This document shows, piece after piece, positions 22,429 through 26,446 of a stretch of DNA of 33,144 bases. The stretch is from Acidobacteriota bacterium (GTDB taxonomy: Bacteria > Acidobacteriota > Thermoanaerobaculia > Gp7-AA8), in the NCBI GenBank assembly GCA_016184115.1, contig JACPDH010000006.1, positions 1 to 33,144 of the forward strand, given 5' to 3'. A model generated the notes under the pieces. That model made no database searches, was not told the DNA's origin, and worked only from the letters and a program-made list of their open reading frames with translations. A program made the position numbers and the translations under genes. Position 1 is the first letter of the stretch. Each line of letters opens with the position of its first letter.

Positions 22429-23688
22429 TCAAGGTTCGAGCGCGTAGACCGTACCCTGTTCCGCGCCGACGAACAGCGCGACACCATCGCCTCCGATGCT
22501 TCGGATACAACCATCGAGGCTCAACGTCCACGCCGGTTCGCCGTCTGTTGCATGAACCGCGATGAGCGTTCCGTCGCACATGCCGGCCAGCACGGTCGTG
22601 TTCCTGACGTAGGGTTGTTCCGACGACGGTTTCGACGAGAGCGGTACGATCCAGAGTGGCTTACCGGCGCGCACCGCTGCGATTGCTCCGCTACCGTCGG
22701 CGCGGGAAAGAAACAGATACACGGTGTCTCCGATGACGAGCGGTCTGCCGATCGGCACACCCGTCAGCTCTGAATACACGCTGAGGACGCCTTTTCGACC
22801 GGAGAGGCGGTACAAGCGCTGATCGTCCGACCCGACGAGGATGTCGTGTCCGAAGATGACTGGTGGCGTTGATGCAGGCGCAGGTAGTTCGTGTCTCCAA
22901 CGAATCTTGCCGGATTGAGATATCGAGTAGACGGCGTTGTCTCGGCCAACTGTGAATAGCTGCCGGCCTGAGGCGACGATCCACTTGGGCAATTCGCACG
23001 GGATGTTGGCCTTGTTCAACGCGACGCTGCCTTGGGAACGACCGGTCGCCAACTCGAATCTCGCCCAGCCGCCGTCGATCCGACCGACCCAACCCGATGA
23101 GCCTACTCGCACAATGTTGGTCGACAACCCGACTTCGGACGGAAGTTTCCATTCAATCGCGCCAGTTTTCACACTAAATGCGTAGACGTGGCCAATTCCA
23201 TCGTTTGTACAGCTGTGATCCGTCGCTACGAGAATTCTCGATCCGTCGACGAGTGGATCACCATGAAAGCTCGTCTGCCTGCCGTCTTGCCGAATGTCGT
23301 ACTGCCATCGCGCGAGGCCGGACGCTTTCTCCAGAGCGTAGAACGTGCCGCCACATGAACCGATGAAGACCGTGTCGCCCACGACCGTAGGCGTAGCGAA
23401 GACTCAGCCCCCGGTGTCGAACTGCCATGCCTTTCGTGGAGCAAGTTGGTCGGCGACTACCGCGGAGTGGACTAGGACTCTGCGCGGTACAAAATCACCC
23501 GGCTGCGAACGTGGTGTCGGCGGCCCAGATTCGGTCGAATCTTCGTCACGTAGAGCCACTACGCTCCTCAGATTCGGTCGAATCTGGGCTCGCCGCTCCA
23601 CGTTCTCGCTGTCGGGCGTTTCTACCGCGCAGACTCCTAGCGCGGCGATCGCCACGACGGTGCTGCAGATGAAGCGATTGGGCTTCAT
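22429..23688 (-). pseudogene. PQQ-type beta-propeller protein interrupted by an in-frame TGA
   Basis: An exported propeller protein. Residues 1-20 form a signal peptide (FICSTVVAIAALGVCA). Propeller blades start at KAWQFDTGG, meet a TGA at 23404-23406, and continue in the same frame as VFATPTVVGDTVFIGSCGG and GTFYALEKASGLARW to the stop at 22429, with several blades of the G-x-x-YAL type. Both halves fit one domain, so this is a single base change, readthrough or an assembly error. Residues about 17-72 consist of a large palindrome (23473-23640) not expected in the family. The gene lies 18 bases after 23707-24066 and probably shares its transcript. Confidence 0.8.
23473..23640. repeat. ~168-bp palindrome inside a coding region
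   Basis: The inverted repeat is centred near 23556. Inner landmarks are CCCAGATTCG (23524-23533) with CGAATCTGGG (23579-23588), and CGTAG with CTACG around the centre. Outer landmarks are CTGCGCGGTA (about 23480-23489) and TACCGCGCAG (about 23623-23632). AGATTCGGTCGAATCT occurs twice in the same sense. Minus- and plus-strand translations are related: both contain CAV, AQIR-NLR, a DS-ESG motif and PRR-L in the same order. Confidence 0.8.
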
Positions 23689-26040: not shown

Positions 26041-26446
26041 CCAATGGCGTGAACTTAAGAGAAGAGGCTGAAGTTAGAACCATGAACGATGAAGTTTGAA
26101 CCCAGGCCCCACCGGCGGTTGCCGACCACCGATGACCAAAGCGTGCGCGAGTTGTCATCTCGACGAGCCCATTCGACTCGCTTCGCTCGCTCAGGGCAGG
26201 CTCCGCGAGGAGGGATCTCTCGGTCTGGCACCCTCGCGCAACGTGCCACTTCGCCAGTGGCGAACGAGTCGTAACCTGAGAGGTCCCTCCTCGCGCTGCT
26301 CGTCGGGACGACATCCGGTCTCGGTATGGCGAACTGTCAGCGGCTTTCGCAGCAGAAGAGGGCCCCGGGCGGGGGTTTCTGGATTCAACATTCATCGTTC
26401 TGCGTTCTAACTTCGAGACCTTCGTCCCTAACTTCAGGCCAATTGG
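26041..26446. repeat. Giant inverted repeat (E2), inverse copy of E1 with an inserted palindrome
   Basis: The left arm (26041 to about 26105, CCAATGGCGTGAACTTAAGA and onward) and the right arm (about 26380-26446) pair with each other. The E2 right arm corresponds to the E1 left arm in reverse, so E1 and E2 are inverted copies. About 270 bp, including a second palindrome, occupies the centre of E2. Confidence 0.83.
26153..26313. repeat. Inner palindrome nested in E2
   Basis: TGTCATCTCGACGAGC and GCGAGGAGGGATCTCTC on the left pair with GCTCGTCGGGACGACA and GAGAGGTCCCTCCTCGC on the right. The left side also holds CGACTCGCTTCGCTCGCTCA, a motif often seen in dispersed intergenic repeats. Confidence 0.7.

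Follow-up and report, generated by a model that had tools for sequence, protein, structure and literature searches.

IS1182-derived MITEs of 160 and 169 bp, with ISMac2 as their partner, have been described in Methanosarcina acetivorans; they carry inverted repeats of 25-26 bp, and 4-bp direct repeats accompany one of the two families (PMC3852290, in the portion available to us). IS1272, an element of the IS1182 family, undergoes a stem-loop-replacing transposition that leaves no duplication (PMC5678879, same scope). In-frame MITE fusions, one of which forms a signal peptide, have already been published for ERIC/RU-1 and RU-2 of enterobacteria (PMC2759123), and the Rickettsia palindromic elements (RPEs) are palindromes of about 150 bp that insert a peptide in frame (PMC10969869), both as given in the accessible parts of those papers.

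The locus considered here lies in a window (the whole stretch of DNA analysed) of 33,144 nt, from an Acidobacteriota genome (G000) of 4.42 Mb in 126 contigs, 97.4% complete. Our main reading, with a probability of roughly 0.85, is that a MITE mobilised by an IS1182-type element landed in frame in a BamB-like selenoprotein gene, within the part that encodes its signal peptide. What is new is an IS1182-type MITE with cross-phylum covariation inside a selenoprotein signal peptide. The M. acetivorans MITEs are similar in having an IS1182 partner and in their 160-bp size class (a likeness of descriptions rather than of compared sequences), but they have an archaeal host, and the available text of PMC3852290 mentions neither coding insertions nor covariation. 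According to the part of PMC5678879 at hand, IS1272 is alike in being IS1182-type and in preferring palindromic DNA but replaces its target, whereas the present element has CTAG on either side and a net insert that is apparently the core plus two bases. ERIC/RU-1 and RU-2, as reported, belong to other hosts, while the present element splits existing signal peptides and shares its ends with an identified IS. RPEs, again compared by description (PMC10969869), share the length of about 150 bp, the palindromic form and the in-frame peptide insertion; they differ from the present element in that its ends are tied to IS1182 and its copies are mostly intergenic.

Inverted repeats identified by repeat search span positions 23472-23640, with 22-nt outer arms (91% complementary) and 47-nt inner arms (72%); a first-pass annotation made from the sequence alone had put the palindrome at 23473-23640, right to within a base. 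Folded as single-stranded DNA, the palindrome has an energy of -64.1 kcal/mol, whereas 200 dinucleotide-shuffled sequences give -27.45 ± 3.12 (z = -11.75) and none of them (0/200) is equally stable; this rules out a chance palindrome. The 163-bp core (GGACTC...GACTCC; 23475-23637, plus strand), delimited by repeats, fold, genome copies, family alignment and a covariance model match, is bounded by a left terminal inverted repeat (TIR) with two mismatches to GGAGTCTGCGCGGTAGAAA (23475-23493, plus strand) and a right TIR that matches it exactly (23619-23637, minus strand). CTA (23472-23474) precedes the core and TAG (23638-23640) follows it; the resulting CTAG motifs (23472-23475 and 23637-23640, unstranded) are, from flank comparison, the left and right copies of a presumed target duplication of TA or CTAG. 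Translation confirmed that the inverted repeat encodes residues 17-72 of the host protein and that either strand of the element gives similar peptides (AQIR-NLR, DS-ESG and PRR), as the annotation had noticed.

A search for further copies, which the annotation had proposed as a check, recovered seven near-full copies in the window's genome including the window's own (84-100% identity, unrelated loci), one 126-bp form without the middle, and five fragments of 34-63 bp. The element was not found in the genome of a genus mate (G001). Among 145 genomes of the class, 17 have a covariance model match; within the window genome's own family of 18 genomes it is the only one that does, a distribution that would suit horizontal arrival. 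The outermost 19 bases, GGAGTCTGCGCGGTAGAAA, are present as inverted pairs in public contigs, in at least 118 stretches; among the matches listed, the hosts are Acidobacteria, Gammaproteobacteria and unclassified Proteobacteria, with relatives of 160-164 bp in both Acidobacteriota and Gammaproteobacteria. The viral contigs scanned gave no match to the TIR (0), the plasmids searched gave none to the Tamilnaduibacter copy, and the end sequence GGAGTCTGCGCGG had 0 hits in open PMC papers, in which printed sequences often sit in figures.

The loci examined contain 82 distinct paired elements. Of these, 68 measure 150-180 bp (160-164 bp in nearly every case), nine more are also short (41-236 bp), and five are long (1470-1570 bp); the long ones have the same TIRs and CTAG flanks and encode IS1182-family transposases. 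Four of these five transposases exceed the IS1182 cut-off of NF033551; that of the long element on a Marinobacter plasmid is broken, leaving a 233-aa fragment below the cut-off that is unannotated there. C-TA...TA-G flanks are common to the MITEs and the ISs, with TA on either side in 53/68 MITEs. Because its GGAGTCTGCGCGGTAGAAA ends and CTAG flanks match those of IS1182-family insertion sequences elsewhere, the element is, judged by its sequence, a non-autonomous IS1182-type element (MITE): it is 163 bp long and repeated, has 19-bp TIRs and no transposase inside, and shares its ends with autonomous elements found in other genomes. The ends of ERIC/RU-1 and RU-2 we take to be different from these. 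The window's genome has no IS1182 transposase match (0), so the mobiliser would now be absent or unassembled there. End-only matches occur in G013, G008, G037 and G114, and an IS1182-like protein start was seen, by eye, only in G114 (L046). An empty site was sought in three relatives and none was recovered, one flank only matching in each; the match in G001 stops 66 bases from a contig edge.

Several other repeats were noticed. In G013, a different CTAG-ended palindrome (CTAGGCCGGCACGGCC...) at L041 1441-1603 has a copy of the IS1182-type end mid-element, and a half form of the CTAGGCCGGCACGGCC palindrome lies directly after a stop codon at L047, around 1435-1525. Two 41-bp elements (L117:1936-1976 and L126:6457-6497) consist almost wholly of the two abutting ends and lie next to CTA or TTA, and ATCCGGGCTA / TAGCCCGGAT recurs beside elements (e.g., L125, L108, L147, L171), as if these were inserted into REP-like palindromes. 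At 26055-26300 of the window there is a frame with an ALSERSESNG-like peptide, presumably a mark of repeat-derived DNA.

Codons 1-16 of the host gene (23641-23688, minus strand) encode the first part of a signal peptide, and codons 73-80 (HSAVVADQ; 23449-23472, minus strand) encode the second. When the net 165 bp are removed, MKPNRFICSTVVAIAAL joins VHSAVVADQ and the continuous product MKPNRFICSTVVAIAAL-VHSAVVADQLAPRKAW has one signal peptide. Removal of the core plus two bases thus leaves one continuous signal peptide, and the element therefore splits it, rather than lying between signal peptide and propeller as first annotated. The proposal of an in-frame insert that adds a peptide near the protein start held up: the net insert (core plus duplication; 165 bp, 55 codons) is stop-free in the frame used and has no counterpart in 5/5 homologues, albeit distant ones (25-34% identity), in which the signal peptide runs straight into the propeller. 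Among these homologues the annotation's refuting case, the segment encoded by non-palindromic DNA, did not turn up. The frame used is open in 5/6 full copies examined in the window's genome and was therefore probably open before insertion. The window's TIR is translated as L-G-V-C-A-V-E at entry and F-V-P-R-R-V-L-V at exit; the passing frame generally gives L-G-(V/A)-C-A-(V/A)-E at entry and, in most copies, F-L-P-R-R-L-L at exit. By resemblance, the entry peptide could act as a signal-peptidase site and the exit peptide as a signal-peptide start. As RNA of the gene strand the hairpin has an energy of -115.4 kcal/mol and starts 48 nt past the ORF start, and so strong a hairpin near the start could reduce expression of the host gene.

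The host gene (22429-23688, minus strand) is, based on translation, Pfam, homologues and a structure model, a probable selenoprotein gene encoding a signal peptide, the MITE-coded 55-residue insert and a BamB/PQQ-like beta-propeller. In the frame from the ATG at 23688, the element (codons 17-72) is followed by TGA at codon 95 (23404-23406, minus strand), a probable selenocysteine codon (U95), and then in the same frame by the propeller (Pfam PQQ_2, E 8.3e-28); beyond the TGA the frame is otherwise open to the gene's end. The first-pass annotation had described a signal peptide and propeller protein; the propeller is indeed in frame, but the TGA that precedes it had gone unmentioned. Searches of 60, 396 and 145 genomes (overlapping sets) found no close orthologue of the host gene; they yielded five homologues with TGG-TGA-(V/L)F, in G041, G014, G001, G431 and G172 (three from the same class but other genomes, two from outside it). 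TGA occupies that codon in 5/5 of them, 6/6 members with the window gene, and a simple nonsense mutation at codon 95 is ruled out because the homologues share the TGA. Remoter BamB-like matches have no stop, and a contig scan with the propeller as query gave no confirmed case. Sec95, which the programs treat as Cys, does not vary among members, nor does Cys112.

A GGUC loop is typical of bacterial SECIS elements. A SECIS-like stem-loop with a GGUC apical loop follows the TGA (23376-23393, minus strand), and a GGUC-loop stem is found after the TGA in 5/6 members; the stability of the window's own stem does not exceed that of shuffles (fold z -0.20). A selB gene is present, over cut-off, in the window's genome. 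No tRNA-Sec was found in that genome (97.4% complete), where the best RF01852 match is a tRNA-Ser according to ARAGORN and a DNA search was negative; G001 and G005 gave no convincing match, and the family members G014 and G013 each have a tRNA-Sec. The structure model (pLDDT 81.1) has a BamB-like propeller and values below 50 at residues 4-56 and 60-76, and the insert is predicted to be a disordered stretch ahead of this propeller. Since all five motif-bearing homologues have TGA at that codon, comparison of the sequences makes it probable that the host gene is an intact selenoprotein. The window gene and L030, L031, L032, L201 and L202 form a small family of probable selenoproteins with TGG-U-V/L-F and an invariant downstream Cys; no paper on a BamB-like propeller selenoprotein family was found among open PMC papers.

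Three further signal-peptide insertions were found in real genes: an M48 peptidase gene in the window's genome (L007), and a BamA-type (L169) and a GH67N-type gene (L128), both in one Acidobacteria MAG. Net inserts in the four gene cases are 165, 165, 162 and 162 bp, all multiples of three. The screen for gene cases asked for a frame open 100 codons past the element in 77 short elements (the window gene fails it through its TGA), and its three most hydrophobic exits are the signal peptides of the L007, L169 and L128 genes, as called from hydrophobic stretches by eye plus a 13-residue window. L196 does not count as an in-gene case, since a likely start lies past the element. At L151:1-149, an element end lies directly before a hydrophobic start (LGMIVAVSAWAVLWTAPESSAQE); a contig edge cuts this element, which was set aside. 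Credible gene insertions thus number 4 among the 77 short elements. A crude greedy ORF caller, applied to the 58 of 68 elements with 600 bp on both sides, placed 15/58 inside an ORF versus 74% expected at random placement in the same loci; copies are mostly intergenic, many just past gene ends. Within 445 greedy ORFs, 27/141 in-frame CTA-G sites lie no further in than codon 45, and the position of 4/4 insertions near the start is unusual by that measure (0.19^4, about 0.001); near-start positions are also expected among survivors of selection. Among long ORFs, 49/445 (L082-L199) end in C-TAG; CTAG targets therefore often coincide with stop codons, and several elements lie directly at gene ends.

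A reading in which the host gene is a pseudogene, in which the MITE insertion and the TGA have each inactivated a propeller gene in decay, would fit the split signal peptide, the strong hairpin near the gene start and the failure to find tRNA-Sec in the window's genome. We consider it unlikely, given that the TGA recurs at the same codon in 5/5 homologues with a similar stem after each, that the frame past it is otherwise open, and that selB is present. The first-pass annotation had likened the insert to the Rickettsia elements. In-frame peptide insertion is a genuine point of likeness, as are the length (~150 bp in the available part of PMC10969869) and the open frames on both strands; kinship with an RPE-type element, selected for coding-region insertion and added peptides, is nevertheless very improbable, because the ends, CTAG flanks and target are of IS1182 type and the elements lie inside crude ORFs far below the random expectation, with only four in credible genes.

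The arms of the element covary across the family. Eighteen representatives in one orientation (<90% identity, down to about 52%; 18 of 20 after L155, a deleted form, and L181, an odd form, were dropped) share a single common hairpin of 54 pairs, 32 of which are changed on both sides. Pairing cells make up 91.2%, versus 77.0% with partners shuffled (a comparison inflated by relatedness) and 37-43% when slid (inflated because this same alignment supplied the hairpin); the score for covariation is 0.360 versus 0.116, and 0/500 shuffles reach 0.360. Template-switch correction of quasi-palindromes, instead of selection for structure, is a possible but doubtful source of this covariation. It agrees with the absence of a sign of a selected RNA strand: excluding two fixed wobble columns, GT/TG cells (22) are not above AC/CA cells (28), and therefore no RNA strand is singled out. 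Correction would, however, erase the mismatches C29/C152 (18 and 15 of 18 members) and C32/T149 (17 and 17), which are conserved among these divergent members, as is the unpaired TCGT opposite CGCCTC; and changes within four sets of close copies (genomes or genus groups) are mostly one-sided (one- versus two-sided 32/8, 40/1, 11/0 and 13/7; together 96 versus 16). The covariation, and the many copies just after gene ends, would also suit a conserved, host-useful structured RNA (a terminator or processing site) spread by IS1182 ends. This too is improbable: wobble pairs show no strand bias, copies in the window's genome change about as fast at paired as at unpaired sites (0.063 versus 0.055), and Rfam gave no family at gathering threshold for six loci, a further Rfam search returning only microRNA families below gathering scores. 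Since the arms covary across 18 members yet close copies drift one-sidedly, these data suggest that the hairpin matters for mobility, with single copies drifting and mobile lineages keeping the hairpin.

Under the preferred reading of an IS1182-mobilised MITE, a DDE transposase of that family would have acted in trans, binding the GGAGTCTGCGCGGTAGAAA ends and inserting the element at CTAG. Insertion would have taken place in the signal-peptide coding region, at a Leu-Val step read in the frame CTA-G, with duplication of the target; with 165 bp added and no stop, the gene would stay in frame and keep its Sec codon further downstream. The element may thereby supply a new cleavage site for the front half of the signal peptide and a positively charged beginning for the rear half, and Sec insertion, export and continued expression of the host gene would be retained. 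More tentatively, selection in transposition may have made the MITE lineage keep one particular hairpin, long and mismatched, with mobility depending on structure, and its ends may be passable through signal peptides, so that insertions in exported proteins survive and lengthen genes.

The locus makes it possible to test how a mobile palindrome rewrites the starts of exported proteins. An element family that covaries in two phyla allows a test of structure-dependent IS1182 transposition, and the host gene points to a small selenoprotein family, a BamB-like propeller with invariant Sec and Cys.
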